The notes: generated by a model from the letters alone, not told the origin. DNA of 43,083 nucleotides from Opitutia bacterium (GCA_003566885.1 PXBO01000094.1:1-43083); one strand, 5' to 3'. Positions 5,010 through 42,752 are shown, numbered from the stretch's first letter. Translations and numbers: made by a program.

Positions 5010-5079
5010 CTGGTGGCGAAAGTGTGCACCCGGGACGGACCGAGAACAATCCCAATTCGGGGTTGCCGGGGATGGAGTC

Positions 5080-24487: not shown

Positions 24488-25648
24488 TCAGTCACCCGGC
24501 CGCCAGTCTTTGGCGGGCGTTTGTGAGGATGAGCTTTCCCACTGGAACTTCGATGAGGTCTGGTCCGAACGCTCCCGTGAGGACGAGCTGGAGGACGTCC
24601 GTTCCCGGTCCGGAGCGTCGGTGTCGGGCGGCGAACCCTCTTCCGGTTTCCCGCGGCCGCCGCCGCCCCGATTTCCACTCCGGCGGGTGCGTTTCCGTTT
24701 CGGACGCTCGCCATCGCGGTTCTCCCGGCGGGGGCCCGCCGGTTTTTCGTTCTCCGAACTTTTCCCCTTATCGGAGTCTTCCGGGTTAACGATGTTGCGA
24801 ATCCAGCTTCCAACCCGTGAAAGCAGGCCGCCGGATTTCCCGGAGCCGGCTTTGGCGGCCGGAGGTTTATTGCCTTCGGGGCGTCGAGGACGGGAACCGT
24901 CGCCGCGGCGACGGTCGCCGCGTTCTCCGCGGTTCTGGCCCCTTTGGCCGCGGCCGCGGCCGCCCCGGGATCGCTGTTCCTGCCCGCCTTCGCCGCCGCG
25001 GGCGGCTTGCGGACGGGTTTGCTCGTCCTGTCGAACCGTTTCCTCCCCCGTGGATTCCCCACTTTCGGAAGTGCGGGCGCGATTGCCCCGCCGGTTTCTT
25101 CCGCCTCGACGTCTCCGGCGGCGCGGTTTGGCTTCGCCCTCCGCCGCGCCGGAGGCGGCGTCAGCGGAATCGGTGGAGGCGGTTGACCGCTCGGCGGCCA
25201 CTGGTTCCGGTTTCTCCTCCCGCTCCGGACGTGACCCTGCTTTGGGCTCCGATTCTTTAGGCGATTCCTCAACTGGCTCCCGCTTGGGAGCCGATTTTTT
25301 CTCCGGTCGGGAGTCCGTGCTCCGGTCGCGTTCGGCAGCGGGTTTTTTTTCCGGCTGGGATTCGGGGCCTGCATCGTGTTCGGCCGCGGGCTTCTTTGCC
25401 GTGGCGGCGGGGCGGGTGGCTTTCGGAGAATCGCTCGAATCCTTTTTGGCGGCGAGCCCGGGGTAGGGCTTGCTGACGGGGACCGGGCCGATGTTGGGCC
25501 CGGCGGAAACTCCGGCTTCAGCGGCCGGGCGCCGGGGGCGGCGTCGATTGGGCGGGCGTTCCGAGGCAGACGGGGCGGTTTTCTTGGGGGTCTCAGGTGT
25601 CGGTTCCGACGGTTTGCTTTCGTTTGCTTGGTCTTTGGACTCTTCCAT
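24488..25648 (-). CDS. Disordered, RGG-rich hypothetical protein
   Basis: A 386-residue protein with almost no predicted fold. The N-terminal half is made of Pro/Lys/Ser/Glu-rich segments (for example SKPSEPTPETPKKTAPS). The middle has dense Arg-Gly boxes (GGRGRGQRGQNRGERGDRRR). One short hydrophobic patch, GGLLSRVGSWIRNIVN, could be an amphipathic helix. RGG boxes often bind RNA, but I assign no function. Downstream, murA begins 5 bases after its stop. The reading frame is likely real: it is long and placed tightly against murA, although low-complexity GC-rich DNA also gives long opposite-strand frames here. Confidence 0.6.
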   Translation of the reverse strand: MEESKDQANESKPSEPTPETPKKTAPSASERPPNRRRPRRPAAEAGVSAGPNIGPVPVSKPYPGLAAKKDSSDSPKATRPAATAKKPAAEHDAGPESQPEKKPAAERDRSTDSRPEKKSAPKREPVEESPKESEPKAGSRPEREEKPEPVAAERSTASTDSADAASGAAEGEAKPRRRRRRGGRNRRGNRARTSESGESTGEETVRQDEQTRPQAARGGEGGQEQRSRGGRGRGQRGQNRGERGDRRRGDGSRPRRPEGNKPPAAKAGSGKSGGLLSRVGSWIRNIVNPEDSDKGKSSENEKPAGPRRENRDGERPKRKRTRRSGNRGGGGRGKPEEGSPPDTDAPDRERTSSSSSSRERSDQTSSKFQWESSSSQTPAKDWRPGD

Positions 25649-26388: not shown

Positions 26389-28332
26389 TCAGCGCAGGGT
26401 CTGGTGTAACTCCTCCAGTCGATGTCCCGCCAGGGTGTTTTGCGGCACGTTCAACTGCCTGCGGGTTTGGCTGAAGAGAAGCCGGGCTTCGTTGGTATGG
26501 CCGTTGGCGTGCAGGTGATTGAGGAAGGGCATGGCGATTTCGTGGAGGAAGTTCGATCCGGAAATATGTCCCCGCAGTTGCGATAGGATCTGCCGGTAGG
26601 CGTTGACGAGGTCGTTGACATCGCCGCGGTCGCGGGCGTGTTCCAGAAAGCGCCGCGCGTAGTGAATGCTCAGGTCCGGACGATCCCGGCGGGTGTCCTG
26701 GCTGATTTGGAGCAGAAGATTCAGCGCCTGGGTGAATTCTTCGTGGTCCAGGTAATGGTCGGCCAGCAAGCCGCGGTAATGGGCGCGAACGTGGGGATGG
26801 TGGGTGAAGGCGTTCGCCGCCCCGCGCAGCGTGTTTTCGTAGGCTGCGGTCCGACCGTTGCCGCGATTGATCTCGGCGACGAGATCCCAGGCGTCGCGAT
26901 TGCGCCGCTCGGCATCGATGGCCCGGCGGGCCGCGGTCAAAGCGCTCGATTCACGTCCGGCCAGAAGGAATTCCCGGGCGAAGGTGCTGTGGTAACGGGA
27001 ATTCGCGTACGCCCGGGTATGGTGGAGGTGGTGTTGCTGGAAATGAAGCTCGTGGTCGTCGATAGTACGCCAGGTTTGCGGGTCGCGGGCGTTGCCGGTG
27101 CGGTAATTGTTCTGGGCGTAGCGTCCCACGTCGAGGTTCCATCCCCGGCTCGATCCCTCGAAGTACCCCATCCAGGCGTGCCGGCCGTTGTCTCCGTAGC
27201 CGGAGAAATAAATGGTAGGCAGTCCGAGCGCTTTGCCCACCTGGGTGGCGAAGTACGACTGGTCCCCGCAAATGCCCCCCACCCGGCGAATGGTCTGCAG
27301 ACGGTAATCGTCGTGGGGCCAGGGTTCCGAAAATCCCGGAAGGTGCGGCCCGTAACGTCGGTGATCGTAGCGCACGGTGGAGTAGGTCCGGCCGAATTGC
27401 GCCACACCGGGACGAATGGCCTGCTGGGCCCACAGCAATTCCTCCTCGGGAGCGATGAGGTCCACCATAAAGCGGAGCTTGCGGGCCGGCAGACGACGGG
27501 GGTCCAGGAGCAGGCGTCCGCCCCGGTGGCTGGATACGAAAAAGGCGAAGGTGTCTTGGGGCGGCATGAGGTTCGACGGCAACAGACCGCCGGGAACGCT
27601 CAGGGGCCAGCCGCCCGGGGGGGACTGATCGTGGACCACGGCGATAGCCAGGGCCAGCGATTTGTATTCTTCGAACACCTCCGGGCCGGCGCGATGGAGC
27701 ATTCCGAGAATACGCGACACCTCCTCCATGCGGTCGTAAGGGGAGATAAGATCAAAGAACTCCCGGGAGAATTCGGCGTCCCGGCAAACCGACAGCATCA
27801 ATTCCGGAGACCAGTTTTCCCCGAACGATCCCGAGTCGGGGGCGAGGTCGGCGTGGAAAGGTTTGTCCTGGAAAAGGTCGATCCACCGGTAGAGATGGTA
27901 CCAGCGCTCCAGTGAGGCGCTATGCTGGGCGCCATAGGACGTCAGCAGGCCGGCCTGCAAATGGGCGGCGAGTGGAAACCATTCCCCTTGCGCGCCGAAT
28001 CGAAGCAGGTCGCCGATTTGGGCGGCCGATGGCGGGCGGCTGAAATCGACGGGCGGCAGGCGCAGGACCCCCGGGGCGAGCGCTTTTTCGCGGTCGCTTT
28101 CCCGCAGGCGGCTGAGAGGAACCGAGTGGATTTGCCCCCCGTCTTCCAGGCGGAGGAGCGCGCTCCTTCCGTCGGTGCCGATCAATTCCGCGTTCAGGGC
28201 AACGCCGCTGGTGGCGGTCCAGGATTGGGAATGGGTGGCGGCGTCATTTCCGGATTCCGCCGGTAAGGAAGAAAGGAGAGAAACGGCAAGGAAAAACAAG
28301 ACCGCCGTGCCAAAAATTGCTGATCCGCGCAT
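26389..28332 (-). CDS. Exported SHD1 plus transglutaminase-like protein
   Basis: A 647-residue protein with a signal peptide (FGTAVLFFLAVSLLSS). Residues about 37-85 (SWTATSGVALNAELIG, GGQIHSVPLSRLRESD) match the SLA1-homology domain common in exported Verrucomicrobiota and Planctomycetes proteins. A transglutaminase-like core has a candidate triad: Cys355 (GGICGDQSYFA), His385 (NGRHAWMGYFE) and Asp401 (WNLDVGRYA). The C-terminal 200 residues are helical repeats resembling TPRs (SALTAARRAIDAERRNRDAW). It could cross-link, hydrolyse or deamidate a surface protein, but the target is unknown. It is divergently placed relative to the Rrf2-ttr-like operon. Confidence 0.75.
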   Translation of the reverse strand: MRGSAIFGTAVLFFLAVSLLSSLPAESGNDAATHSQSWTATSGVALNAELIGTDGRSALLRLEDGGQIHSVPLSRLRESDREKALAPGVLRLPPVDFSRPPSAAQIGDLLRFGAQGEWFPLAAHLQAGLLTSYGAQHSASLERWYHLYRWIDLFQDKPFHADLAPDSGSFGENWSPELMLSVCRDAEFSREFFDLISPYDRMEEVSRILGMLHRAGPEVFEEYKSLALAIAVVHDQSPPGGWPLSVPGGLLPSNLMPPQDTFAFFVSSHRGGRLLLDPRRLPARKLRFMVDLIAPEEELLWAQQAIRPGVAQFGRTYSTVRYDHRRYGPHLPGFSEPWPHDDYRLQTIRRVGGICGDQSYFATQVGKALGLPTIYFSGYGDNGRHAWMGYFEGSSRGWNLDVGRYAQNNYRTGNARDPQTWRTIDDHELHFQQHHLHHTRAYANSRYHSTFAREFLLAGRESSALTAARRAIDAERRNRDAWDLVAEINRGNGRTAAYENTLRGAANAFTHHPHVRAHYRGLLADHYLDHEEFTQALNLLLQISQDTRRDRPDLSIHYARRFLEHARDRGDVNDLVNAYRQILSQLRGHISGSNFLHEIAMPFLNHLHANGHTNEARLLFSQTRRQLNVPQNTLAGHRLEELHQTLR

Positions 28333-28667: not shown

Positions 28668-28724
28668 AAAATTCGACAAACAGGTCGATTTTATAATCGA
28701 CACAAAGGTCGAATATATAAATAG
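28668..28724 (+). promoter_or_regulatory. Promoter with tandem palindromic operator upstream of rrf2
   Basis: A perfect TATAAT lies at 28692-28697. Two inverted repeats of the form TCGAC-6 bases-GTCGA flank it: 28673-28688 and 28697-28712, with starts 24 bases apart. A canonical -35 is not obvious (TTCGAC at 28672 gives only 14 bases of spacing). The layout suits binding of two repressor dimers over the promoter, most simply by the Rrf2 protein encoded downstream. Confidence 0.6.
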
Positions 28725-28732
28725 TGCTTCCC

Positions 28733-29182
28733 ATGATCGGGCTCTCTCAGGGAGTGGGTTATGCGGTGAAGGCCTTGGCCTGCCTCAACGAGGACGGTAA
28801 GGGGCACTTTGTCCGGGAAGTGGCGGAGTGTGCCCAGGTGCCGCCGGCCTACTTGACCAAAGTGTTCAAGAAGCTCGTGGACGCCGGGATTTTGACCTCC
28901 AAGAGGGGCTGGGCGGGCGGCACGCGCCTGGCGCGCGCGCCAGGTTCGATCACACTGCTGGAAATCACCGAGGCGATCGATGGCAACGACTGGAACCGGG
29001 GCTGTCTGTTGGGCCAGGAGTTTTGCAGCGATGAGCGCGCCTGTCCCACCCATGACTTCTGGAAGGTTCAGCGGGAAGCCATCGCGGAAAAACTCCGCAA
29101 CACGACTTTGGCCGCATGCATCGAATTTGAGCGCAATCGCGGCACGCTCGGCACCTGTAAGAGCGTTTCACATCGTTCCTGA
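28733..29182 (+). CDS. Rrf2-family transcriptional regulator with Fe-S cysteines
   Basis: A 149-residue winged-helix regulator. The DNA-binding part has [32 protein letters not shown], the Rrf2 recognition helix and wing. Three cysteines (Cys91, Cys98, Cys104 in [16 protein letters not shown]) sit where IscR, NsrR and RsrR ligate an Fe-S cluster, so it may sense NO, redox state or cluster supply. ATG at 28733 is preferred over GTG at 28724 because [15 protein letters not shown] aligns with the family start. It is 14 bases from the ttrB-like gene and is probably autoregulated with it. Confidence 0.88.
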
Positions 29183-29196
29183 AATTCACCTCAACC

Positions 29197-30213
29197 ATGG
29201 ATAATTTAACCGAAGAACCCTCGATCCCGGAACCGAAAGTAGCATATCCGGCCATGAGCGGGGCGCGGGCTTCGACGCCGGAAGCGCTTCTGAAAAGCGG
29301 GGGAGCGGAGTCATGCCGGACTCGGGATGAATCTCCTGGAGGCGATCCGGGGAGAAAGCAATTCCTGGCCGGAATCGCTGCTTTGGTGGGGCTCGGCGCC
29401 TTGTCCATGCCTTCCTTGGTGCGGGCGGGCATGGCTGCGGCGGCCGAGGATAGCGCGGACGCACCGGACGCGAGCCTGCTGAGGGATGGACCGAGGTTCG
29501 ATGAGGACGAAGCGGAGAATATTATCGTGCGGATGCAAAAGGAGTTGCAGACGGCGATGCGCAAACCCATCGAACAGCGTAAATGGGTCATGGTGATCGA
29601 CCTGCGCAAATGCACCGGCTGCGGCGCCTGCACTATCTCTTGCATTGCCGAGAACCATCTCCCTGCCGGTGTGGTTTACCGACCCGTAATGGAGGAGGAA
29701 CTGGGGACCTACCCGAATGTATCGATCCGCTCCACGCCGCGGCCCTGCATGCAGTGCGAAACGGCGCCTTGTGTTCCGGTTTGTCCGGTCCGGGCCACAT
29801 GGATCCGTCCGGACGGTATCGTCGACATGGACTACGACCAATGCATCGGCTGCCGTTATTGCATGACCGCCTGTCCCTATCATGCGCGAACCTTTGATTT
29901 CGGCTACGATTACTCGGAGGGAACGCCGGCACGACAACCTTACGAGGAGGTACCGAATTATGAATACAACAAGCGCTGGCAACAGCGCAAGGGGCGGTCG
30001 CCGGTCGGCAATGTAAGAAAGTGCCATTTTTGCTCGCACAAAATCGATGCCGGCATGCTGCCTTCATGTGTCACGACCTGTATCGGCTATGCCACTTATT
30101 TCGGGGATGCGAACGACCCCGAGAGCCTGGTCTCCGAGCTGATCAGCCGCAGCAACAAGATTCGTCTCAAGGAGGAAATGGGGACCCGTCCGCGGGTATT
30201 CTATCTCATTTGA
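29197..30213 (+). CDS. Four-cluster [4Fe-4S] ferredoxin subunit, TtrB/NrfC-like
   Basis: This 338-residue electron-transfer subunit has four Cys sets: [35 protein letters not shown] and CHFC...CVTTC. These fit four [4Fe-4S] clusters, as in TtrB, PsrB and DmsB. The N-terminus carries a long polar leader, then Arg53-Lys54 in [18 protein letters not shown]. That is a Tat-like signal with the second Arg replaced by Lys. It would pass electrons between the NrfD subunit and the molybdenum subunit. It is first in a B-C-A order that matches ttrBCA. No Shine-Dalgarno precedes the ATG. Confidence 0.85.
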
Positions 30214-30267
30214 TGACCGGGAATCACCACTTTTGAGCATTGCATAATCCTTGAAGCCACATTCGCC

Positions 30268-31461
30268 ATGCAACCCTCCGCAACCGTTGTCGCCCCCCGC
30301 TTGAACCGGACCATTGACTACCGGGTATCTCTCGGGATTACCTTCATCGCCTTACTCTTCGGGGCATACGGGGTGATTCGTGTACTGGTCTTCAAGGAGC
30401 ACGGAGCGCTCACCAGTTATGTTCCGTGGGGGCTCTGGGTGGGCGTCTATGTCTTTCTTGTCTGGCTCGAGGTGGGAATGATTCTCACGTATTTTCTGTT
30501 GCGGCGGTTTCTTCAGATCGAGGGCCTTCGACTCCTGGCCCCGGTTGTTATGCTGGCGGCGATCTCGGCACTTATCGGTGCGCTTTTTGTCATCGGCATG
30601 GACCTCGGCCACCCGTTTCGCTTCTGGAAGGCCTACCTGCAGCCCAACTTCGGTTCCCTGATGTCCTGGATGATCTGGCTGCACACCCTGTACCTGTTCA
30701 TCCTGGTTGCCGAGTTGTTCGCCTATTTCAAGGGAAAGGACTACGTGGATCGCTGGAAGATCTACCTGAATTTTCTCACCTACATCAGCATTCCCATCGG
30801 CGTGTTGTTGATTGCAGTGATCGGAGGTCTTTTCGGGGTGGTTGCGGCGCGCCCGTTTTGGAACGCTTCCGTTTTGCCGCTCATGTTTTTCATCGCTTCG
30901 CTCGTGGCGGGGCTCGGACTCCTGATTCTTTTGCATTTAATCTTTTCTCCCACGCGGGGCACTCCCCAGTACGAGCGGACCGCAGTCCGGATGGCGCGTG
31001 TTTTCCTCGGTGCAATCATTATTGGTATGATCGCGTCTCTTGCGAACGGCCTCGTCATTGCCTACCCGAACGTGCCCGCCTACGCGGAGGGCTTGAAGCT
31101 GGTGCTCTTCGGTCCCTACTGGTGGACGATCTGGATCGTTCACCTCGCGATCGGAGTGCTCGTTCCTCTCATCCTCCTGGGGCTATGGCGGACGCGCCTG
31201 TGGGCCATCTGGGCGGCCTCGATCTGCTATCTTGTGGGTTTCACCATGGTGCCGGTGAATATCATCATCCCGGGGCTGGCCTACCCCATGCCGACAATGG
31301 AGGGGATCAAGGAAGCCTTTCATCACCCGAAACTGACCTTCGATTATGCGCCGATGTTCATGGAATGGCAGGTGGTGGTCTTTGCGGTGGGGCTTTCGCT
31401 CTTAATCTTCACCGTGGGATACCGCTACATCGTAGAACCTTATCTGAGAGAACACCATTGA
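30268..31461 (+). CDS. NrfD/PsrC-family membrane subunit, TtrC-like
   Basis: A 397-residue membrane protein with about ten hydrophobic helices, of the NrfD/polysulfide reductase family that exchanges electrons with the quinone pool. Family-like features are TSYVPWGLWVGVYVFLVW, GMDLGHPFRFWKAY and FGSLMSWMIWLHTLY. The HPFRFW region is near the expected quinone-binding side. At 397 residues it is longer than TtrC (about 340, from memory). It lies between the ferredoxin and molybdenum subunit genes, giving the complex its membrane anchor. Confidence 0.87.
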   Translation: MQPSATVVAPRLNRTIDYRVSLGITFIALLFGAYGVIRVLVFKEHGALTSYVPWGLWVGVYVFLVWLEVGMILTYFLLRRFLQIEGLRLLAPVVMLAAISALIGALFVIGMDLGHPFRFWKAYLQPNFGSLMSWMIWLHTLYLFILVAELFAYFKGKDYVDRWKIYLNFLTYISIPIGVLLIAVIGGLFGVVAARPFWNASVLPLMFFIASLVAGLGLLILLHLIFSPTRGTPQYERTAVRMARVFLGAIIIGMIASLANGLVIAYPNVPAYAEGLKLVLFGPYWWTIWIVHLAIGVLVPLILLGLWRTRLWAIWAASICYLVGFTMVPVNIIIPGLAYPMPTMEGIKEAFHHPKLTFDYAPMFMEWQVVVFAVGLSLLIFTVGYRYIVEPYLREHH

Positions 31462-31522
31462 GGAAAATTGAAGGCAACGGTTCCGCCGATCACGGATCGG
31501 ATCCATCGAGTCAGGAAAGAAA

Positions 31523-34500
31523 ATGAACGAGACGCAAGCAAAGCCATCGAATCTCTCCCGAAGACAGTTTCTCAAATCCAGCGCGCTGGTGGGTGGATGC
31601 GCGGCTTTGGCGACCGCTTGTCAAAGGGCGGAAGATCTCGCATCGAGGGCGGAGGCCGGGACGTTGCCGTCCGGGGATTTCTACGATCTGGCGAGACCGG
31701 AAAACATTATCTACACGACCTGCATGAACTGCAACACGGGTTGCGGGATCAAGGCGAAGATCGTCGACGGGGTCATGATCAAAATCGACGGCAATCCGTA
31801 CAGCCCGTGGACCATGACCCCTCACCTCCGGTACCGTCACAGTCCCGCCGATCCTGTGATCGCGGCGCTCGATGGCGCCATTTGCCCCAAAGGGCAGGCC
31901 GGCATCCAGACCCTCTACGACCCCTACCGTATCCGTAAAGTTCTTAAACGGATCGGCAAACGCGGGGAAGGGAAATGGAAAAGCATTCCTTTCGAACAGG
32001 CGATTTCTGAAATCGTCGACGGCGGGAAGTTGTTTGCCGATGTTCCCGGAGAAGAATCGCGTGAAGTGGAGGGGCTCGACAGAATATGTGCGGTGCGCGA
32101 CCCCGCGCTCATGTCGCGACTGAGAGCGGACGCGGCCAGAGTCACGGCTGGCGATATGACGGTGGTCGCTTTCAAGGAAGCCCATCGGGATCACCTGCAC
32201 CTCCTCATCGACCCTGAGCACCCCGACCTCGGACCACGAAACAACCAGCTTGTTTTTAACTGGGGACGCATGAAAGCGGGTCGCAGCCAGTTCGTGCAAC
32301 GCTTCATCAGTGATTCTTTTGGGACGATCAACCGCATCGGCCACACCACGGTTTGCCAGGGCTCGCTTTACTTTGCCTGCCGCGCCATGAGCGAACAATA
32401 TGTCAACGGCGAATGGACGGGAGGCCGTAAGTTTTATTGGCAGGCCGACCTTCGGAATGCCGAGTTTGTCATTTTCGCCGGTTCGAATGCGTTTGAGGGA
32501 GGCTACGGCCCCCCGCTGCGCACGCCGAAGATCACCACCGGCCTCACGGAGCGCCGGCTGAAGTTCGCCGTTGTCGATCCGCGCATGGGGAAGCTGGGCG
32601 GCAGGGCCTGGAAGTGGGTCCCGGCCAAGCCGGGCAGCGAGACCGCCCTCGCCCTGGCCATGATCCGGTGGATCATCGAGAATGAACGCTGCGACGAGCG
32701 CTACCTTTCCGCCGCGAACAAGGCGGCTTCCGACGCGATCGGCGAACCGAACTGGAGCAATGCGACCTGGCTGGTGAAGGTCGGCGCGGATGGTGAGCCC
32801 GGAGACTTTCTCCGCGTGGGCGATCTGCCGGAAGAGCAACGTCCGTCGGGCGAGACCGATCGTTTTCTTGTTCTACGCGAGGGCCGTCTCCACGCGGTGA
32901 ATCCGGATGATACGGAAAACCCCATCACCGGAGAACTACTGGTCGACACCACGGTCGACGGGATTCCCGTCAAGAGCAGCATGCAGCTGCTCTACGAATC
33001 CTCTTGCGAGCATGACCTCGAGGGTTGGGCCGAGATCTGCGGCATCCGCACGCGCGACATCATCGATCTCGCCCGCGAGTTCACCAGTCACGGAAAGAAG
33101 GCGGCGGCCGATGTTCACCGCGGGGTCTCGCAACACACCAACGGCTACCTGGCGGTGGCGGCGTGGATGAGCCTCAACATGCTGGTGGGCAATTTCGGAT
33201 GGAAGGGCGGGATGATCGAATCGTCCACTTTCAACGCGACCGGGACCGGCGCCGGACAGCCCTATCCGGTAAACAACATGCACCCGGGAAAACTTAACCC
33301 TTTTGGCATACCGATCATTCGCGACCGCGTCGAATATGAGAAGTCCACGCTCTTCGAGGGTTATCCTTCCAAACGCCCCTGGTATCCGATCGCCGACAGC
33401 ATTTACCAGGAGGTCATTCCCTCCGCGGGCGATGCCTACCCGTACTCGATCAAAGCCCTGATCCTCTACATGGGCGCGCCCAATTACGCGCTTCCGGCCG
33501 GCAACGAACTGAACAAAATCCTTTCGGACACCAAAAAGATTCCGCTTTTCATTTCGAACGACATCACCATCGGAGCGACCTCGGCATACGCGGATTACAT
33601 CTTTCCCGATGGCACCTACTTCGAGCGATGGGAGTTCCACGGCTCGCACGGCTCGGTGGCCCAGAAAGTCCAGCCCGTGCGCACCCCGGTCGTCACCCCC
33701 CTGGTCGAGACGTGCCGGGTGTTCGGCGAGGAAATGTCCCTCTCGCTCGAATCCATGATGATGGGCTTTGCCGAGAAAATGCAATTGAGCGGCTTCGGCC
33801 CCGACGGCTTTGGAAACGGCATGCCGTTTACCCACCCCGACCATTATTACTTGAAAATGGTGGCCAACATCGCCGCGGACGGAAGCCCGGTACCCGACGC
33901 CGGCGAACGGGAGGAAGCGGTCTTTCGAAGCTCCCGGCGTCACATTGCCGCGAATACATTCGATGAAACCCGCTGGCGGGAAGCTGTCGGCGAGGAGTGG
34001 TGGAAGAAGGTGGTTTACGTGCTGAACCGCGGTGGTCGCTTCCAGGATTACCCGGACACCTACCGGGGCGAACAACTGACCAACGCCTACGCCCGGTTGG
34101 TGAACCTTTACTGCGAGAAAACCGCTCGCTTCCGCAACAGCATGACCGGCAAACGGTACGACGGCATTCCCCGGCACTACCCGGTTCTCGACAGCCTTGG
34201 TCAACCTTTGCCTGAATCCGAGGAGGAATATCCGCTGCTCCTCAGCACCTACCGCCAAAGCGTGCAGACGAAATCCCGCACGAATTCCGCTTATTGGTTG
34301 CTGGCCGTCGTTCCGGAAAACGCCATACTGATGAACCGGTTAACCGCGGAATCGTCCCGGTTGAAAACCGGCGACGAGGTGATCATCAAGAGCGCATCCA
34401 ATCCCGATGGCGTCTGGGATCTCGGGGAACTCGGCATGCGCGAGGTCAAAGGCAAAATCAAGGTCGTCGAGGGTATGCGTCCCGGCGTTGTGACCTTCTC

Positions 34501-34708
34501 GCTGGGCTTCGGCCAGTGGGGCAACGGCGCGAGGGACATGTCGGTCGACGGCGACACCATCCGGGGCGACGAACGGCGCGGTCGCGGCATCAACGCCAAC
34601 GCCGTTATGCGCGTCGATCCCTTCCTCAAGAATACCGCGCTTTCCGATCCCATCGGCGCCAGCGTCGTTTTCTACGACACTCGCGTCCGTCTCGAACGCG
34701 CCGGGTGA
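31523..34708 (+). CDS. Molybdopterin oxidoreductase catalytic subunit, TtrA/SrdA-like
   Basis: A 1061-residue Mo-bis-PGD enzyme of the DMSO reductase family. A Tat signal is present (SRRQFLKSSALVGGC). The FeS0 cluster cysteines are Cys67, Cys70, Cys74 and Cys121, with an unusually wide 46-residue spacing before the last. Residues 225-290 (DPEHPDLGPRNNQLVF, SDSFGTINRIGHTTVC) closely resemble TtrA, where DPxxPxLGPRxNQL is followed by NSFGTxN. Cys278 is the likely Mo ligand. AGGAAAG precedes the ATG. Tetrathionate is the best guess as substrate, but related SrdA reduces selenate. Arsenate is possible given the neighbours, though ArrA/ArxA similarity looks weaker. Confidence 0.82.
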   Translation: MNETQAKPSNLSRRQFLKSSALVGGCAALATACQRAEDLASRAEAGTLPSGDFYDLARPENIIYTTCMNCNTGCGIKAKIVDGVMIKIDGNPYSPWTMTPHLRYRHSPADPVIAALDGAICPKGQAGIQTLYDPYRIRKVLKRIGKRGEGKWKSIPFEQAISEIVDGGKLFADVPGEESREVEGLDRICAVRDPALMSRLRADAARVTAGDMTVVAFKEAHRDHLHLLIDPEHPDLGPRNNQLVFNWGRMKAGRSQFVQRFISDSFGTINRIGHTTVCQGSLYFACRAMSEQYVNGEWTGGRKFYWQADLRNAEFVIFAGSNAFEGGYGPPLRTPKITTGLTERRLKFAVVDPRMGKLGGRAWKWVPAKPGSETALALAMIRWIIENERCDERYLSAANKAASDAIGEPNWSNATWLVKVGADGEPGDFLRVGDLPEEQRPSGETDRFLVLREGRLHAVNPDDTENPITGELLVDTTVDGIPVKSSMQLLYESSCEHDLEGWAEICGIRTRDIIDLAREFTSHGKKAAADVHRGVSQHTNGYLAVAAWMSLNMLVGNFGWKGGMIESSTFNATGTGAGQPYPVNNMHPGKLNPFGIPIIRDRVEYEKSTLFEGYPSKRPWYPIADSIYQEVIPSAGDAYPYSIKALILYMGAPNYALPAGNELNKILSDTKKIPLFISNDITIGATSAYADYIFPDGTYFERWEFHGSHGSVAQKVQPVRTPVVTPLVETCRVFGEEMSLSLESMMMGFAEKMQLSGFGPDGFGNGMPFTHPDHYYLKMVANIAADGSPVPDAGEREEAVFRSSRRHIAANTFDETRWREAVGEEWWKKVVYVLNRGGRFQDYPDTYRGEQLTNAYARLVNLYCEKTARFRNSMTGKRYDGIPRHYPVLDSLGQPLPESEEEYPLLLSTYRQSVQTKSRTNSAYWLLAVVPENAILMNRLTAESSRLKTGDEVIIKSASNPDGVWDLGELGMREVKGKIKVVEGMRPGVVTFSLGFGQWGNGARDMSVDGDTIRGDERRGRGINANAVMRVDPFLKNTALSDPIGASVVFYDTRVRLERAG

Positions 34709-34962: not shown

Positions 34963-35688
34963 ATGGACATCACATGGCTCGTACTCTTGTTGTTGCTGAT
35001 CGCGGTGCTTTACGCCGCGGTCGGTCATGGCGGCGCGTCGGGGTACCTGGCGGTCATGGCCCTGGCGAGTTTCGATCCGGCGGTGATGAAGCCGACGGCG
35101 CTGACGTTGAACCTGATTGTTTCGCTGGTGGCGACGGCGATGTTTTTTTGGAAAGGGCACTTTCGCTGGAAACTCTTCTGGCCGTTTGCGCTGGTGGCCG
35201 TTCCCTTTGCGTTTATCGGCGGCGGCTGGCAGGTGCGAAACGAGGTCTTTCATCTGCTCGTGGCGGGAGCGCTGGTGTTTGCGATCGTCCGCCTTCTTTT
35301 GCCGGGAACGCCCGACCGTGAATTGCGACGCCCGCCGTGGTGGGCGATCCTTCTGTCGGCCTCCACCATCGGGCTCGTTTCCGGCCTGATCGGAGTGGGC
35401 GGGGGGATATTCCTCACACCGCTCCTCCTGGTCTTCGGCTGGGCCCGACCCGCGACCGCGGCGGCCGTCTCCGCGCCGTTCATCTTTGTCAATTCCGCCG
35501 CCGGTCTCCTCGGCCATGGGAGCGCCGTGGCGAACCTGCCGTCCTATTGGCCGCTGCTCGCTTGCGCCGTGCTGGCCGGCGGCATCATCGGCGCGCGGTG
35601 GGGAAGCGCGATCGCCCGTCCGGTGCTCTTGCGCCGCGCGCTGGCGGGTGTCCTCGTTGTTGCCACCGTGAAAATGCTCGTGCTGTAA
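34963..35688 (+). CDS. TauE/SafE (TSUP) family anion exporter
   Basis: A 241-residue membrane protein with about eight helices. YAAVGHGGASGYLAVMAL at the N-terminus and VSGLIGVGGGIFLTPLLL in the second half are the paired TSUP repeats. The family exports sulfite, sulfoacetate and other organosulfur anions. It lies 254 bases downstream of the TtrA-like gene on the same strand. That suits removal of a sulfur product, but other cargo is possible. The leader before the ATG is C/T-rich with no Shine-Dalgarno. The 254-base gap itself holds no gene I can identify. Confidence 0.82.
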   Translation: MDITWLVLLLLLIAVLYAAVGHGGASGYLAVMALASFDPAVMKPTALTLNLIVSLVATAMFFWKGHFRWKLFWPFALVAVPFAFIGGGWQVRNEVFHLLVAGALVFAIVRLLLPGTPDRELRRPPWWAILLSASTIGLVSGLIGVGGGIFLTPLLLVFGWARPATAAAVSAPFIFVNSAAGLLGHGSAVANLPSYWPLLACAVLAGGIIGARWGSAIARPVLLRRALAGVLVVATVKMLVL

Positions 35689-36205: not shown

Positions 36206-36859
36206 TCAGCGGTTCCGAAATCGAAACGGTGTTCCCGGATTGCTGGAGCGACTTGTGCCGGTTTGTCGCCAAAAAAAGAGGGCGCCAAAGAAAAAGCAGA
36301 GCGTGGCCACGAGTTGGAGGGTTTCCTCGAAATAGAGGGCGGTTTCAGTGGCAATCGGAAAAATCTCTTTGTCGAAGACCCAGGATACCCCGTACAGGAG
36401 TATGCCCGCGAAAACAAAACGGCTTCCCGGATCCAGGAGCAACCGTGCGCGATCCAGCCAGAGATGTCTGCGGTTGAACGCCAGGACGATCCCGTGCAGA
36501 ACCCATAGGAGAACGATAACCGAACGAAATATCACTTCGATGGCGGGCCAGAAGCCTTGGGGGCCAAGTTGGTCGACATCTACTTCGCGGGCGAAAAGGG
36601 TTAGGCACAGCAATGCGAGCGTGATGTGGTATAGAGCAATGGACCGCTCGGAACGATTCAGGTGTCTTCCCCTGTAACCGTGGATGAACGCGGCAAGAAG
36701 GAGCAGGATGGCTTGAGCCCATTCGACAATGTGTCCTTCGTCCATCACCCCCGGAACATTCCGCCAGAGCAGGAAGGTCACGATCGGAGCGGTGACCAGG
36801 GAAGAAACGATGATAATTCCGGGGACCAGGTTTGGCGTGGACGTGTGGCGATGTGGCAT
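36206..36859 (-). CDS. Hypothetical six- or seven-helix membrane protein
   Basis: A 217-residue membrane protein. Helices are visible as GIIIVSSLVTAPIVTFLLW, AQAILLLLAAFIHGY, ALYHITLALLCLTLFA, VIFRSVIVLLWVLHGIVLA, FVFAGILLYGVSWVF and LQLVATLCFFFGALFFW. Charged positions REVDVD and YFEETLQ near membrane edges recall acidic motifs in uncharacterised families, but I cannot name one. The start at MPHRHTST is set by the first helix; the frame remains open upstream through the arsC remnant, which is why a longer call would be wrong. No operon partner is evident. Confidence 0.6.
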   Translation of the reverse strand: MPHRHTSTPNLVPGIIIVSSLVTAPIVTFLLWRNVPGVMDEGHIVEWAQAILLLLAAFIHGYRGRHLNRSERSIALYHITLALLCLTLFAREVDVDQLGPQGFWPAIEVIFRSVIVLLWVLHGIVLAFNRRHLWLDRARLLLDPGSRFVFAGILLYGVSWVFDKEIFPIATETALYFEETLQLVATLCFFFGALFFWRQTGTSRSSNPGTPFRFRNR

Positions 36860-36956
36860 ATTTGATGGATCCTGGTCCGACTGATAGCCGGTATTGGAGG
36901 ATGCAAGCGTTTCTATCGTCGTGACCAATGCCAACGAAAAAATCCCGGCGCCATGC

Positions 36957-37056
36957 CGAGGTCCCTGACCTTTTGCGGAACTCCGACGTGATTGCCTCGG
37001 CGGCGCCGTTGTCGTGGCGGGCGAATCCCCAGTGATGAATTTGGACCGGGTAATAG
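36957..37056 (-). pseudogene. Decayed arsC fragment (arsenate reductase remnant)
   Basis: Read on the minus strand, PVQIHHWGF is followed by GAAEAITSEFRK and, after a frameshift, KVRDL. The intact ArsC at 40030-40497 reads [28 protein letters not shown] over the same stretch. The block TCACTGGGGATTCG is identical in both. At least two frame changes and stop codons break the copy, and no N-terminal CxxxxxCR loop is present. It is therefore a dead C-terminal piece. It lies beside the nucleoside phosphorylase gene, about 3 kb from the live arsC. Confidence 0.75.
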
Positions 37057-37161
37057 GCGGTTTTTCCAATTTTACCGGGAATATTTTGCCAATGGGTCCG
37101 TCATGATTCCCTTTGAGTTGTCCGGTTTGAGTTTTTTGATCCAGACAGCATTATCTTGCGT

Positions 37162-37938
37162 ATGTTTGCTTTTATTACCGGTTCCGGTTTTTACGATTAT
37201 CCCGGCCTGAAAAGGGTTCGGGTCGAAACGCGTTTTGGTGAGGCGACAGTCCTTTCGGGACGTGCCGGCGGTCGCGAGGCATTGGTGCTTCCGCGGCACG
37301 GTGACAATCACGAGCGTCTGCCGCACCATATCAACCATCGCGCACACTTGTTGGCGCTAAAGGAAGCGGGGGCGACGGCGGTGGTTTCACTTTCCGTCTG
37401 TGGTCTGCTGCGGGGGGACTGGCCGCTGGCCCGTCCGCTTCTGGCGGATGACCTGTACTTTCCCGAGAACCGGCTTCCGGGCGGCGAGCCCTGCACGGTA
37501 TTTGATCGGGCCGGCGCTCCGGACCGGGGTCACCTGCTGGCCTCGAGCTTCTTTCACTCCGGTGTTACCGAGCGTATCGAGGCTCTGGCCGGCGAACTTT
37601 TTGAAGATCCACGGCGCGGGATCTATGGGTCGGTTTTGGGACCCCGTTTCAACAGCGCGGCGGAGATTAGGGCGCTGGCACATGCTGCCGGGGTGGATTT
37701 TATTTCCCAGACTTGTGGTCCGGAAGCCGTTCTCGCCAACGAGCTGGAATTGCCTTATGCCTTGGTGGGTTTCGGCGTGGATTATGCCAACGGCGTTGGC
37801 GAGACACCGACTCCCGTAGAGACTCTCCGAAAGAATCTGGGCCGAGCGAATGCGTTTTTCACGGAAGTGATTGAGCGCCTGGTCGAACCGGACGAAGGGT
37901 TTTCGTTTGAGAATTTCATCTACCGGTTTGAGTCGTAG
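37162..37938 (+). CDS. MTAP-type purine nucleoside phosphorylase
   Basis: A 258-residue phosphorylase cleaving the glycosidic bond of a purine nucleoside or methylthioadenosine with phosphate. TGSGFYDYPGL is the N-terminal phosphate loop. PRHGDNHERLPHHINHRAHL is the RHGxxHxxPPHxINxRAN block of MTAP/PNP. The later ISQTCGPEAVLANELELPYA and the GFGVDYANG region are in the place of the purine-binding site. An upstream in-frame TTG gives no better start than this ATG. It is convergent with the glycosyltransferase gene, 12 bases apart. In arsenosugar clusters a similar enzyme is proposed to remove adenine from the arsenical nucleoside. Confidence 0.85.
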   Translation: MFAFITGSGFYDYPGLKRVRVETRFGEATVLSGRAGGREALVLPRHGDNHERLPHHINHRAHLLALKEAGATAVVSLSVCGLLRGDWPLARPLLADDLYFPENRLPGGEPCTVFDRAGAPDRGHLLASSFFHSGVTERIEALAGELFEDPRRGIYGSVLGPRFNSAAEIRALAHAAGVDFISQTCGPEAVLANELELPYALVGFGVDYANGVGETPTPVETLRKNLGRANAFFTEVIERLVEPDEGFSFENFIYRFES

Positions 37939-37950: not shown

Positions 37951-38598
37951 TCAAAGGGATTTCTGTTTGACCCCGCGATTTCCGAGGAGCAGGTCCGCCA
38001 GAACCGGACGGCTGCGGCGAAGTGACGAGATATCGTCGATGTCTTCTTTAACATTCAGGAGGGCGGTTTGCAGCCCGGCTTGTTTGGCTCGGTCCAGCGA
38101 TTGTTTTAGAACCTCCGAGGTACTCCAGGGGATCTGCCGGAAAAGTTCGGGCGCGTGACGCTTAAGGGCGAGCAGGTAGTAGCCGCCGTCCCGCGCCGGA
38201 CCGAACACGGCATCGCAGCCGGAGGTCAGGGAGTCGAGGGCGGCGTAAAAGTCTTCGGAATCGAGATCCGGGCAATCGGCGCCGATCAGAAAGACCGGTT
38301 CGGTTCCCCTGCGAAAGGCGTTCGCCGAGGCGGCGGACAGACGGGCGCCCAGGTCGCCCTCGACCTGCGGAAGGTACCGATCCGCTCCGTGAATCCACGC
38401 GCGAATCCGGTCCTCCGCTTCAGCCGGGGCAAAGTGGATTTCCACCGGCCAGCCGGGGGGAAGGGCGGCAACCTGCCGCTCGACCAGGGAGCAAAAAACG
38501 GCGCAGGCGGCACTGTCCCCGACGTCCCTGGCCAGGCGGGTTTTGACATAGCCCGGGACCGGGCTCTTAAGGAATAGCAGGACGGAGGGAACTGGCAT
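37951..38598 (-). CDS. DUF2064 glycosyltransferase (rSAM/selenodomain-associated transferase 1 type)
   Basis: A 215-residue GT-A-like protein. PSVLLFLKSPVPGYVKTRLA is the usual start of DUF2064 proteins. LIGADCPDLDSEDF gives the acidic nucleotide-sugar site, and DAVFGPARDGGYYLLAL is the other key block. The family (TIGR04282 from memory) is found beside radical-SAM genes, including the arsenosugar gene arsS. The start at MPVPSVLL is chosen from that motif. The same frame is open for 113 codons upstream with no known domain. It follows acr3 on the same strand after 362 bases. Confidence 0.85.
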   Translation of the reverse strand: MPVPSVLLFLKSPVPGYVKTRLARDVGDSAACAVFCSLVERQVAALPPGWPVEIHFAPAEAEDRIRAWIHGADRYLPQVEGDLGARLSAASANAFRRGTEPVFLIGADCPDLDSEDFYAALDSLTSGCDAVFGPARDGGYYLLALKRHAPELFRQIPWSTSEVLKQSLDRAKQAGLQTALLNVKEDIDDISSLRRSRPVLADLLLGNRGVKQKSL

Positions 38599-38938
38599 GT
38601 CGATGGTGGAAGATTGGGGGATAAACTCGGTGCCGGCGATACCTGTTTCGTGCCGCCGCACCGGCGTTACCGCGACGAGACAGGTCTGAGCACCTCGCTT
38701 ATGGGCGACCCGGTGAATGTGACGTTTGAACGGATAAAATATTCCCGGCGTCATTCCGCGAAGGCGGATGCGGATGATTTCCGCGCCGCAGCCAAAGCGC
38801 GCCAGCAACTCATCGTGGCTTGCGAGGATTTTTTCCGCGTCGATCCCGGTGGTGTCTCCTTCGAGATCACGGCATCGAAAGCAAGTTCCTCTTGGCAGGC
38901 GGAATGAAGACGTACCGCTGGTGCGTCCGCTCTCACCC
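38599..38938 (-). other. Open frame fused in phase upstream of the glycosyltransferase, unassigned
   Basis: From a stop at about 38938 the glycosyltransferase frame is open for 113 codons before its ATG. It reads, in part, TTGIDAEKILASHDELLARF, GCGAEIIRIRL and GMTPGIFYPFKRHIHR. No ATG is seen in a good position upstream; a TTG at 38808 and an ATG in RGMTPG are the options. I do not recognise it. It could be the tail of a decayed gene, a true N-terminal extension, or chance. It fills the 362-base gap between acr3 and the glycosyltransferase. Confidence 0.3.
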
Positions 38939-38960
38939 TAGCCTCAGGCTTTTGGGCACA

Positions 38961-40028
38961 TTAACTGTGAAAATGGGTTCGGTCAACGTGTTTCACTCTG
39001 GCGGGAAACCAGTGCTTGGTCCGGTTGGCGATCTTGACCAGCGCCAGCATTACCGGAACCTCGACCAACACGCCGACGATCGTGACGAGGACGACAGGGG
39101 ACGAAGCCCCGAAGATCGTGATGGCTACCGCCACCGCCAACTCGAAAAAATTCGAGGCGCCGATCAAGCCTGCCGGCGCGGCGACATCGTGACATATCCG
39201 AAGTTTTTTACTGACGAAGTAGGCGATGAAAAAGATCAGAAAGGTCTGGATGATCAGAGGAATCGCAATCAGGAGAATATGGAGCGGATTCCCCAGGATC
39301 ACCCCGCCCTGGAATGAGAAAATAAGGACAAGCGTCAGAAGCAGACCGCCGATGGTGACGTTATTGAACTTGGTGATGAATTGCCGATGGAAGTATTCCT
39401 CGCCCCTGCGCTTGATCACGGCACGACGCGTCCAAATTCCGCCGGCCAGGGGGATGACGACAAAGAGAAACACGGACAGAAACAAAGTATCCCACGGAAT
39501 CGTGACGCCTCCGATACCGAGCAGAAAGACGACGATCGGAACGAAGGCGACGAGAATGATCAAGTCATTGGTAGCGACCTGCACGATCGTGTAGGCGGGA
39601 TTGCCCTTCGTCAGGTGGCTCCAGACAAAAACCATAGCCGTGCAGGGAGCGGCGCCGAGAATGACGGCGCCGGCAAGATAATCTTTCGCCAAATCCTCCG
39701 GGATCCATGCACTGAATACATAATAAAAGAAGAGGGCCGCGAGTCCGAACATGCTGAACGGCTTGATCAACCAGTTGACCGTCCAGGTGACGTAGAGCCC
39801 GCGAGGCTCACGCCGCACGTTCTTGATGCTGGTGAAGTCCACCTTCATCATCATCGGGTAGATCATCAGCCAGATCAGCACCGCGATCGGGATGGACACC
39901 TGCGCATACTCGAACCTGGCGAGGAATTCCGGAATGCCCGGAAGAAACCTCCCGATGAGGATGCCGGCGATCATGCAGAGCACGACCCATACGGTCAGGT
40001 TCCTTTCAAAAAAACTGATTCCAGTCAT
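38961..40028 (-). CDS. acr3: Arsenite efflux permease ACR3
   Basis: This 355-residue membrane carrier exports arsenite. Ten helices are visible. ILGAAPCTAMVFVWSHLTKG holds the conserved Cys of helix 4, and ASNFFELAVAVAITIFG contains the conserved Glu of helix 9; both are needed for transport in ACR3 proteins. The start at MTGISFFERN lies 1 base after the arsC stop. An in-frame ATG at 40046 would overlap arsC by a few codons. ACR3 with ArsA makes an ATP-driven pump in some species. Confidence 0.94.
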   Translation of the reverse strand: MTGISFFERNLTVWVVLCMIAGILIGRFLPGIPEFLARFEYAQVSIPIAVLIWLMIYPMMMKVDFTSIKNVRREPRGLYVTWTVNWLIKPFSMFGLAALFFYYVFSAWIPEDLAKDYLAGAVILGAAPCTAMVFVWSHLTKGNPAYTIVQVATNDLIILVAFVPIVVFLLGIGGVTIPWDTLFLSVFLFVVIPLAGGIWTRRAVIKRRGEEYFHRQFITKFNNVTIGGLLLTLVLIFSFQGGVILGNPLHILLIAIPLIIQTFLIFFIAYFVSKKLRICHDVAAPAGLIGASNFFELAVAVAITIFGASSPVVLVTIVGVLVEVPVMLALVKIANRTKHWFPARVKHVDRTHFHS

Positions 40029-40029
40029 T

Positions 40030-40497
40030 TTATTCCGTTTCGTCATTTTTCGATCCCGGGTTCGACGTCGTTCCCTCCCGATAACCCGCGGCATAGGCCT
40101 CGAACACCAGTTTGATCTGGTCGCGCACGCGGCGGAACTCGGCCGTGATTTCCTCTTCGGTGCCGGTGGCGTGGGCCGGGTCGTCGAATCCCCAGTGATA
40201 ACGGTTCACCTGGCCTGGAAACATCGGGCAGGCCTGGTCGGCATTGCCGCAGACGGTGATGACGGTGTCGATGTTCCGCTCGAGGAACTCGTCCATGTGT
40301 TTGGACCGGTGTTCGGAAATATCGATGCCGATTTCTTTCAAGGCCTCGATGGCTTTCGGATGGACGTAACCCGCCGGATTCGAGCCGGCGCTGTGGACGT
40401 CGAAAAGGTCGCCTGCGGTCTGGCGCAAAATGCCTTCGGCCATGTGACTGCGACACGAATTTCCGGTGCAGAGAATGAGTACGGTCGGTTTGGTCAT
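40030..40497 (-). CDS. arsC: Arsenate reductase, thioredoxin-coupled type
   Basis: This 155-residue low-molecular-weight-phosphatase-fold enzyme reduces arsenate to arsenite. The P-loop is CTGNSCRS at residues 10-17, and the other redox cysteines are in CGNADQACP. Those mark the thioredoxin-linked ArsC of the S. aureus type, not the glutaredoxin type. [16 protein letters not shown] is the conserved C-terminal block. It is immediately followed by acr3. A repeat-derived leader, without Shine-Dalgarno, precedes the ATG. Confidence 0.94.
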
Positions 40498-40503
40498 GGT
40501 TTG

Positions 40504-40600
40504 GTGGATTGAAGATTGAAGATCGAAGAATGGTGGAGTGTGTCCCGACCCCCAATACTCCAGTACTCCATCCCATAACTCCAGTTATCCATCACTCCAT
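40504..40600 (-). repeat. Leader repeat before arsC (TTCGATCTTCAATC and GGAGTATTGGAGT modules)
   Basis: Plus-strand GTGGATTGAAGATTGAAGATC followed by GAAGAATGG, then tandem ACTCCA/ATACTCC units, fills this 100-base gap. A close copy precedes arsA at 42669-42740. In each case, on the coding strand, the CTTCAATCCAC end abuts the start codon. These are direct repeats with slippage variation (GATCGAAG is doubled in the second copy). Confidence 0.7.
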
Positions 40601-40610
40601 TTCTTCTTCC

Positions 40611-40826
40611 TCACCCGTGGCAGCCACAGGACGGGCCGCAGGCGTCACCGCCGCCACCATCGTCTTTTTTCATGAGGCCGTAGCCGCCCAGGATGACCCG
40701 CCGGATGGGTTCGCCCGTTTCCGGGTGTTTGTCCAGTGGTTTGTCTTTCATGCTTTGTTGGATTTCGAAGTACTTCGCCTCTTCGCCCTTTTTTTCGGGT
40801 ATGGTTTCGTAAACGTAGGTGGTCAT
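40611..40826 (-). CDS. FmdB-like small protein with Cys-rich tail
   Basis: A 71-residue protein. YVYETIP, FEIQQSMKDKPLDKHPETGE and IRRVILGGYG follow the FmdB regulatory-protein frame (YxY...FEvxqSMxDxPl...P.xgxpvrRlisGG). The usual CxxC zinc knuckles are absent, replaced by T-I-P and H-P-E-T positions. Instead a tail GGGGDACGPSCGCHG carries three cysteines and a histidine, a possible metal or metalloid site. Its ATG overlaps the arsA stop (ATGA at 40823-40826), which ties it to arsenic resistance. Confidence 0.75.
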   Translation of the reverse strand: MTTYVYETIPEKKGEEAKYFEIQQSMKDKPLDKHPETGEPIRRVILGGYGLMKKDDGGGGDACGPSCGCHG

Positions 40827-42661
40827 ACTTGTGTTGTTGTCTCGGTGGTTTTGTTGGACTCGAGGAGCGTCCGCAGGCCCGACGGACCGACGGGATCGAC
40901 GGGGCTCCAGGGGATCAAAAAGACGGGTGTATCGGCGTGCTCGTTACAGACTTCGTGAATGTAGCGGATTTCGGCGCGTCCGCGCGCGGCGAGGAGGGGC
41001 TCGGCGGTGTCCGTTCCGGCGAGGCTTTGGTTGATGATCCAACCGTGGGGTTCGATTTGCGCACGACGGAGGTCGGCCTGGAGGGCGGCGGCTTCATGCA
41101 CGGGAGTGGCTTCGGGCAGGGTGACGAGCAGGACGTGGGTAAAGTCGGGGTCCCGCAGGCGGGGGAGGAGGCGTTCGACCGCTTCGGAGTTTTCGGAGGA
41201 GCGGCTTTGGCGTCCGAGTTCGCGGTGGTAGGACTGGGTGGCGTCGAGGAGGAGGAGGGTGTGCCCGGTGGGCGCGGTGTCGAGCACCACAAAACCGTCT
41301 TCGCCCTGGGCCACGGTGCGGGCGAAGGCGCGGAACACGGCGATCTCCTCGGTGCAGGGAGATCGCAAGTCCTCCTCAAGAAGCGCGCGGCTGTCGGCGT
41401 CCATGTCGGCGCCTTTGGTGGCCAGAACCTCTTCGACGTAGGCCTGTGTTTCCGCCTTCGGATCGATGCGTTCGACCTCGATTCCGGTGTTTTCCGCCCC
41501 GAGCGCGTCGGCCAGGTGAGCCGCCGGGTCGGTGGTGGAGAGGCGTACCTTGGCGCCCCGTTCCGCCAGGGCGAGGCCGAGCGCGGCGGCGACCGTGGTT
41601 TTGCCGACGCCGCCCTTGCCCATGGTGAGAATGACGCCGCGCTGTTTTTTCACCAGGCGGTCGGCCAGGGCGTTCAGGTCGGGCAGGTCGGGGAGGGGTT
41701 TGTGTTCCATTGCGTGAACGTGCGCCCCCAGAGTCTCCATGACCGTGGCGTCATCGGCGAAAAACGCGCGCAGGACATCCAGGCCGATCAGGTTGGCCGG
41801 AACGAGAGGGGCGAGGTAGAGGGGGAGCGATCGGATGAAGTCGATTTCGGTTTCGATCGCTTCGTTTTGGCGTTCGTGCCAGCGCGCGGCGACCGGATCG
41901 CCTTCGGGTTGGGAAACGAACCAGCCGTTGATGGCCAGACTCTGGTTTTGTATGCCGATCTGGGTGAGCTCGTGCCATGTGCGGCGGGCTTCCTTGAGGG
42001 CCGCCTTCTGCGCCCGGCTGACGAGGAGCATCTTCGTTCGCGCCGGGTCCTTCAGCACCTCGACGGCTTCCGCGTAAAGGGCGCGCTGTTTCTCCAGTCC
42101 GGCGAGCGGACCGAGGCAGGAATTGCCGGTCGTGTTGTCGTCGAGGAAGCTGGTCCAAGCTTGCGAGAGCGCCATCAAGCGCAGGGTGTGGCCGGTCGGC
42201 GCGGTATCGAAGACGATGTGATCGAAGTCGGTGTTGTTTTGGCTTCCCAGGTAACTTGTGAACTCGTCAAAGGCCGCGATCTCCATCGTGCAGGCGCCGG
42301 AGAGCTGTTCTTCCATTTCCTTCAGAGCCGCCTCCGGAAGGAGGCCCCGCATCGGACCGACCACCTTCTCGCGGTACTCCGCGGCGACGGCTTCGGGATC
42401 GATGTTCAGAGCGGAGAGGTGCTTGACGCCGGGAACGGCACGCGGTTCGCGCGATAGTTCGAGCCCCAGGACCTCGTCGAGGTTCGAAGCCGGATCGGTG
42501 CTCACCAGGAGCGTTCGTTTTCCGCTTTCCGCCAGAGCCAGAGCGGTGGAGGAAGCGAGGGAGGTTTTTCCGACGCCCCCCTTGCCGGTGAAAAAGAAGT
42601 ACCGCGTGGGCGAGTGCAAGAGCTCCCGGACGGGACGGTGTTGAATGGATTCAGGTTTCAT
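40823..42661 (-). CDS. arsA: Arsenical pump-driving ATPase ArsA
   Basis: A 612-residue soluble ATPase with two homologous halves, each with a deviant Walker A: GKGGVGKTS (26-34) and GKGGVGKTT (about 345-353). Each half also has the DTAPTGHTLR/L signature. Metalloid-binding cysteines are conserved: SGACTMEIAAFDEF, NSCLGPLAGL and SPCTEEIAVFRAF match E. coli Cys113, Cys172 and Cys422. It delivers arsenite to a permease; here the partner is ACR3, since no arsB is seen. The start at MKPESIQHRP is the ATG nearest the first P-loop. A repeat-derived leader lies before it. Confidence 0.95.
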   Translation of the reverse strand: MKPESIQHRPVRELLHSPTRYFFFTGKGGVGKTSLASSTALALAESGKRTLLVSTDPASNLDEVLGLELSREPRAVPGVKHLSALNIDPEAVAAEYREKVVGPMRGLLPEAALKEMEEQLSGACTMEIAAFDEFTSYLGSQNNTDFDHIVFDTAPTGHTLRLMALSQAWTSFLDDNTTGNSCLGPLAGLEKQRALYAEAVEVLKDPARTKMLLVSRAQKAALKEARRTWHELTQIGIQNQSLAINGWFVSQPEGDPVAARWHERQNEAIETEIDFIRSLPLYLAPLVPANLIGLDVLRAFFADDATVMETLGAHVHAMEHKPLPDLPDLNALADRLVKKQRGVILTMGKGGVGKTTVAAALGLALAERGAKVRLSTTDPAAHLADALGAENTGIEVERIDPKAETQAYVEEVLATKGADMDADSRALLEEDLRSPCTEEIAVFRAFARTVAQGEDGFVVLDTAPTGHTLLLLDATQSYHRELGRQSRSSENSEAVERLLPRLRDPDFTHVLLVTLPEATPVHEAAALQADLRRAQIEPHGWIINQSLAGTDTAEPLLAARGRAEIRYIHEVCNEHADTPVFLIPWSPVDPVGPSGLRTLLESNKTTETTTQV

Positions 42662-42668
42662 GGGAGTC

Positions 42669-42740: not shown

Positions 42741-42752
42741 ACCGTGACGGCA

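Follow-up and report, generated by a model that had tools for sequence, protein, structure and literature searches.

The 43,083-nucleotide (nt) contig PXBO01000094.1 of an Opitutia bacterium (GCA_003566885.1, positions 1–43,083; hereafter the window) carries an operon for a respiratory molybdoenzyme headed by a gene for an Rrf2-family regulator, raising the question of which oxyanion the enzyme reduces and to what kind of signal the regulator responds. The original prediction described a TtrBCA/SrdBCA-like operon under a cluster-sensing Rrf2 repressor. Our analysis favors, with a probability of roughly 0.5, an rrf2-B-C-A operon encoding a respiratory oxyanion reductase, most likely for arsenate, that would be governed by an Fe–S Rrf2 protein via a paired operator.

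The operon comprises four consecutive plus-strand genes at 28733–34708 with intergenic gaps of 14, 54 and 61 nt, and the open reading frames (ORFs) together with Pfam and NCBIfam matches bear out the predicted row of products. The first gene, rrf2 (28733–29182), encodes a regulator of 149 residues (PF02082, 6e-27, 94.8 bits; TIGR00738 above its cut-off), followed by subunit B (29197–30213, 338 residues; 4Fe-4S dicluster match in Pfam/NCBIfam), a ferredoxin with four cysteine clusters comprising 16 ligand cysteines, and subunit C (30268–31461, 397 residues; PF03916, 2e-25), an NrfD/PsrC-type quinol-interacting membrane anchor with about ten hydrophobic segments. Subunit A (31523–34708, 1061 residues) shows Molybdopterin, Molybdop_Fe4S4 and twin-arginine translocation (TAT) domains, an invariant amino-terminal CxxCxxxC...C motif (C67/C70/C74/C121), a twin arginine at 13–14 and, as the probable molybdenum ligand, Cys278, which is invariant across 36 homologues. 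Encoded next to B and C, it is predicted to be exported by the TAT pathway. Its AlphaFold model (mean predicted local distance difference test score of 90) matched ArrA (6cz7) best among solved structures and PsrA second, consistent with the superfamily and, at the level of a model, giving no choice of substrate. The source is a 67.6%-complete metagenome-assembled genome (MAG), the large-subunit relatives stem from Opitutales/Puniceicoccaceae MAGs, and the host is taken to be a soda-lake-type bacterium. As the order rrf2-B-C-A was found again in two independent assemblies (L012/G028 and L013), we do not suspect the arrangement to be an artefact.

Three Opitutales proteins share 84, 83 and 81% identity with subunit A, proteins of Balneolales and Rhodothermaceae 67%, and those of many phyla mostly 42–57%; identity is about 32% to true TtrA, 46% to SrdA and about 23% to ArrA. 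We calculated a FastTree phylogeny of 99 rows, a mixture-model tree of 47 rows and a bootstrapped tree of 29 rows from homologues picked by similarity to the window, so that the trees locate the window among the references and do not report on clade sizes; the true TtrA references were annotated ttr plasmids, and ArxA was absent from the reference set. As SrdA we took the protein of Mesobacillus selenatarsenatis SF-1 on BASE01000031 (L073), because the contig matches BSSF00031, on which the genome paper places srdBCA (PMC4319585), and because its lineage is the one to which SrdA belongs (PMC7331816). All three trees agree in showing canonical TtrA as a separate group, SrdA nearer, yet outside the window clade, and ArrA and PhsA distant. 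The window lies inside a 12-row clade that excludes SrdA (support 100/99) and is split from TtrA at 100/100, and a 45-row group of the TtrA/SrdA lineage, including Thermoproteaceae and SrdA rows, is separated from ArrA and PhsA with a Shimodaira–Hasegawa-like approximate likelihood ratio (SH-aLRT) support of 99. The window clade is spread over many phyla, and the segment following the molybdenum-ligand cysteine (HTTVCQGSLYFA) is specific to it, unlike the segments of TtrA, SrdA and ArrA. Subunit A thus appears to belong to an unnamed clade of the TtrA/SrdA lineage, outside canonical TtrA and SrdA. The phylogeny that had been proposed as a check upheld the common lineage, but placed the protein with neither TtrA nor SrdA and instead in a clade linked to arsenic resistance (ars) genes. 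It also lies outside ArrA, scoring 98 bits on a model with a cut-off of 1600. In a search of its own genome, the TtrA equivalog model matched this gene only.

A reductase for tetrathionate, or another sulfur oxyanion, under Rrf2 control is an unlikely reading of these data. The lineage is shared with TtrA, which is also the best NCBIfam match. Furthermore, a gene for a TauE/SafE-type exporter (34963–35688, plus strand; PF01925, 8e-32), a candidate co-transcribed gene, lies 254 nt 3′ of A; an exporter of the same type is found 3′ of A in L012/G028 (L012 11514–12242) and could be part of the functional unit. On the other side, subunit A reaches 494 bits against the TtrA cut-off of 1750, its split from TtrA has full support and the surroundings of the molybdenum-ligand cysteine differ, which together led us to reject a TtrBCA assignment: "TtrBCA-like" holds for the broad lineage and fails as a functional label. 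As had been noted, no TtrR/TtrS homologue is present in the window, and the clade is linked to ars genes. The B-C-A order once compared with ttrBCA is real but the rule throughout the TtrA/SrdA lineage, and was thus discarded as a sign of ttr; likewise, the blocks DPEHPDLGPRNNQL (230) and SDSFGT (263), read as TtrA-like, are present in subunit A in versions common to the whole TtrA/SrdA/archaeal lineage rather than specific to TtrA.

An Srd-type selenate reductase seems similarly improbable. SrdA is the closest characterized enzyme and its gene order is equal, but it branches outside the window clade, the segment after the molybdenum-ligand cysteine differs (CGQTSNKAW against CQGSLYFAC), and no ars genes were found near the SrdA-side loci of our sample.

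The genomic surroundings point to arsenate. An ars cluster on the minus strand (37951–43082) starts 3.2 kb downstream of the operon, comprising genes for a TIGR04282 "arsenosugar biosynthesis" glycosyltransferase at its end (37951–38808; 176 bits, cut-off 134), the arsenite efflux transporter Acr3 (38961–40094; 367 bits, cut-off 283), a low-molecular-weight-phosphatase (LMWP)/thioredoxin-type arsenate reductase ArsC (40030–40497; TIGR02691 at 150 bits, under the cut-off of 174), the arsenite pump ATPase ArsA (40823–42724; TIGR04291 at 756 bits, over cut-off) and, at the window end, the metallochaperone ArsD (42753–43082; NF033727 at 109 bits, over cut-off). A gene resembling methylthioadenosine (MTA) phosphorylase (37156–37938) adjoins the glycosyltransferase gene. 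Counting loci flanked by 6 kb or more, we found ars linkage for 8 of 43 in the window clade versus none of 22 on the side of SrdA (Fisher P 0.03, and 0.07 for longer flanks), and all ars-linked loci of the tree sample fall into the window clade, except for a plasmid copy in Citrobacter arsenatis. That copy (L116, NZ_CP037863.1, 7013–11817) is a TtrA-lineage B-C-A operon that a conjugative plasmid carries within an ars island; its Citrobacter host is associated with arsenate, and similar genes are present on other enterobacterial plasmids. In 50 genomes, five Acr3 genes were observed within 8 kb of A, compared to 0.15 expected from genome-wide Acr3 counts (P ~6e-7). Directly 3′ of a B-C-A operon in an Anaerolinea MAG lie arsC- and acr3-like genes (L081, 5420–13244); this genome also has a second, distant A copy of a different subclade. 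In a genome of the same genus as the window (L011, G001:C358), an operon remnant with the start of B fused to a fragment of A (533–1189) adjoins arsC-arsD-arsA-acr3 (1527–5060). Ttr-type genes of Melioribacter roseus, located beside ArrTSR and ars genes, are reported to be transcribed with arsenate, and similar transcription is described for Pyrobaculum aerophilum (PMC5492636). Taken together, the ars linkage, the Acr3 excess, the two loci just described and these precedents lead us to favor arsenate, which we rate about as probable as all other options together; as a substrate it is a better, albeit unproven, guess than tetrathionate from sequence context. The caution originally attached to the substrate on account of the neighboring arsenic genes was well placed, and the evidence now leans towards arsenate.

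The same observations bear on a broad-specificity reductase of chalcogen and arsenic oxyanions acting opportunistically, with the ars cluster a neighbor by coincidence. The lineage has been described as catalytically versatile (PMC10100899) and the ars linkage is patchy, but proximity to Acr3 about 30-fold above chance in the sampled genomes argues against coincidence, and we regard this reading as improbable, too.

Turning to the regulator, Cys91, Cys98 and Cys104 are found in the sensing loop exactly as predicted and are invariant in 11 aligned Rrf2 proteins. Their Cys-X6-Cys-X5-Cys spacing resembles the Fe–S sites of IscR and NsrR. The protein scores 52 bits against an IscR equivalog cut-off of 207. 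Because these three cysteines are present, a role as cluster-sensing repressor is plausible. An rrf2 gene directly 5′ of B was found in Verrucomicrobiota loci only (the window, L012/G028, L013, L127/G222 and L123/G334), and three loci (L014, L124, L128) are without it, so that we rejected the idea of Rrf2 accompanying the enzyme throughout its family; elsewhere in the lineage, TtrR/TtrS-like genes take the upstream position instead (e.g. L028, L035, L057, L076, L128). Rrf2 control would hence be a Verrucomicrobiota feature within this sample.

Upstream of rrf2 we identified two predicted operator sites of the form GACA-N5-RTC on the plus strand, GACAAACAGGTC (28675–28686), located at the same position before rrf2 in relatives, and GACACAAAGGTC (28699–28710), starting exactly 24 bp after the start of the first. 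The palindrome GTCGATTTTATAATCGAC in this region, first taken as the operator, is better explained by those half-sites of the pair that face each other. The hexamer TCGACA at 28697, which resembles a –35 element, is overlapped by site 2, and this overlap would suit repression without proving it. A GAYA-N5-RTC pair with the same 24-bp start-to-start spacing precedes rrf2 in G039 (L130), L012/G028 and L013, as well as B in L014, a locus without a neighboring rrf2, and, in L014's own genome, an rrf2 heading the genes for pyruvate:ferredoxin oxidoreductase (PFOR; L182/G460). The L014 and L182 pairs provide independent support, since they were found after the motif had been noticed. Single sites precede rrf2 in G222, G334 and G061, where rrf2 also heads PFOR, and two sites with another spacing were found in G052. 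Overall, nine upstream regions of 150 nt contained 14 sites compared to 0.27 expected from shuffles, and no site was detected upstream of five control rrf2 paralogues with other neighbors. A genome-wide search for the tandem motif yielded mostly chance matches in coding sequences and, beyond the rrf2 sites (G000, G028, G039), no clear regulon member. As the predicted operator is conserved, control of the operon by Rrf2 in place of ttrRS, as originally proposed, is likely.

Comparison with relatives suggests that the regulator cassette has been swapped. The window Rrf2 is closest to that of G039 (87% identity), which heads C-A-B genes matching ArrB and ArrA (1144 bits); as a yardstick, M. selenatarsenatis ArrA reaches 1124 bits, both being under the model cut-off of 1600, and the label, set without ArxA references, does not separate ArrA from ArxA. 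The Rrf2 proteins of L012 and L013 are only 45–50% identical to that of the window, despite 83–84% identity in subunit A. At the DNA level, similarity between the window and G039 covers the operator and rrf2 only (28685–29165), and similarity to L012 in BCA begins at about 29384. Because these similarities cover different segments, regulator and operator appear to behave as one module, distinct from BCA. Further operons of this type are a decayed rrf2-arrCAB in a congener of G039 (L179, G054:C5, 709–2670), whose site 1 is preserved and whose site 2 has changed, and PFOR genes headed by the same Rrf2 type and operator in L174 (G061:C40, 211–4115; with a MoeA gene further downstream) and L182 (G460:C100, 1501–3410). 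In these relatives, arr-type operons apparently turn over rapidly. The Rrf2/operator module is, as far as these neighborhoods tell, not specific to this enzyme, nor is it arsenic-specific, an option we rejected, as PFOR is headed by relatives that share the operator. It looks like a movable cassette for anaerobic or Fe–S control that has taken the place of the customary two-component system. A direct, ArsR-like binding of arsenite by the three cysteines in place of an Fe–S cluster would fit the nearest Rrf2 heading arrCAB and the ars genes near the window operon, but is very improbable, as close relatives that share these cysteines and the operator are found at the head of PFOR genes without an adjacent arsenic gene, and the cysteine spacing resembles that of the IscR/NsrR Fe–S sites.

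For the arsenate reductase under Fe–S Rrf2 control, we envisage the following mechanism. Menaquinol electrons would enter via subunit C and pass through the four clusters of B, acting as conduit, to A in the periplasm, as the families suggest; A would reduce the oxyanion, most likely arsenate to arsenite, and the nearby ars cluster would dispose of the product. Rrf2, presumably holding an Fe–S cluster on Cys91/98/104, would bind the two conserved sites overlapping the promoter and govern its own operon by oxygen, redox or Fe–S status rather than by sensing substrate, with the same regulator-plus-operator cassette serving arrCAB and PFOR in relatives.

Several observations weigh against this reading. 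For the window clade, activity is predicted from sequence context, 35 of the 43 clade members lack ars genes within 8 kb, and ars linkage is of modest significance in the Fisher test. The substrate cannot be read from identity, since the selenate reductase SrdA reaches 46%, and the induction of Melioribacter ttrA is statistically unclear (PMC5492636). The link of rrf2 to arrCAB is weak evidence on substrate, because the cassette also heads PFOR. On the regulatory side, a Verrucomicrobiota Rrf2 beside BCA (G334) is without the three cysteines, and the motif was found post hoc and seen in some regions before counting, so that the site count is descriptive. The G334 locus (L123, G334:C73, 4440–16265) itself contains two tandem B-C-A operons with rrf2 between them, where all three sensing-loop cysteines are lost and the upstream site is kept.

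Elsewhere in the window, three sizeable minus-strand ORFs (24488–25648, 26389–28332 and 36206–37069) gave no NCBIfam or Pfam match, and Rfam and tRNA searches of the window returned no features.

Among known systems, SrdBCA of Mesobacillus (Bacillus) selenatarsenatis SF-1 shares with the window the B-C-A order, a TAT-exported A of about 1060 residues, a four-cluster B and an NrfD-type C, but differs by the separate clade of window A, the residues beside its molybdenum-ligand cysteine and the lack of an Rrf2 gene. TtrBCA/TtrRS (E. coli plasmid pC27A-4, Proteus) has the same order and overall architecture, and differs by the low identity in A, the fully supported split and ttrRS where the window has Rrf2. 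M. roseus MROS_1074-1076 and P. aerophilum PAE1265 belong to the same lineage with arsenate-linked transcription, Melioribacter having ars genes nearby but an ArrTSR-type two-component system instead of Rrf2 (PMC5492636). ArrA/ArrB provides the best structural match and, in G039, a near-identical Rrf2 with the same operator pair, although window A is about 200 residues longer and remote from ArrA in identity and score. With IscR, NsrR, RirA and RsrR the regulator shares the Rrf2 family and three sensing-loop cysteines, and the GAC...GTC-like operator halves recall IscR type-1 sites; unlike these, it combines X6 and X5 cysteine spacing, paired sites 24 bp apart and respiratory or anaerobic enzyme targets.

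How arsenate may be respired where ArrAB is lacking awaits an answer, and TtrA-type enzymes are among the candidates considered for Melioribacter and Pyrobaculum. The operon marks a clade of many phyla that is statistically tied to ars genes and whose substrate is directly testable, and the paired operator offers a testable candidate binding site and regulon predictor. While the enzyme label of the original prediction was imprecise, its regulatory idea appears strengthened and broadened: the locus would exemplify a one-component Fe–S-type regulator where related operons employ two-component sensors. Tentatively, a mobile Rrf2-plus-tandem-operator cassette may have taken over unrelated oxygen-sensitive enzymes in Opitutales, including two different respiratory reductases of arsenate type, classic ArrCAB and an arsenate reductase of the TtrA/SrdA lineage. 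In that case, Fe–S or redox status, and not a substrate-sensing two-component system, would switch anaerobic arsenic respiration in this order.

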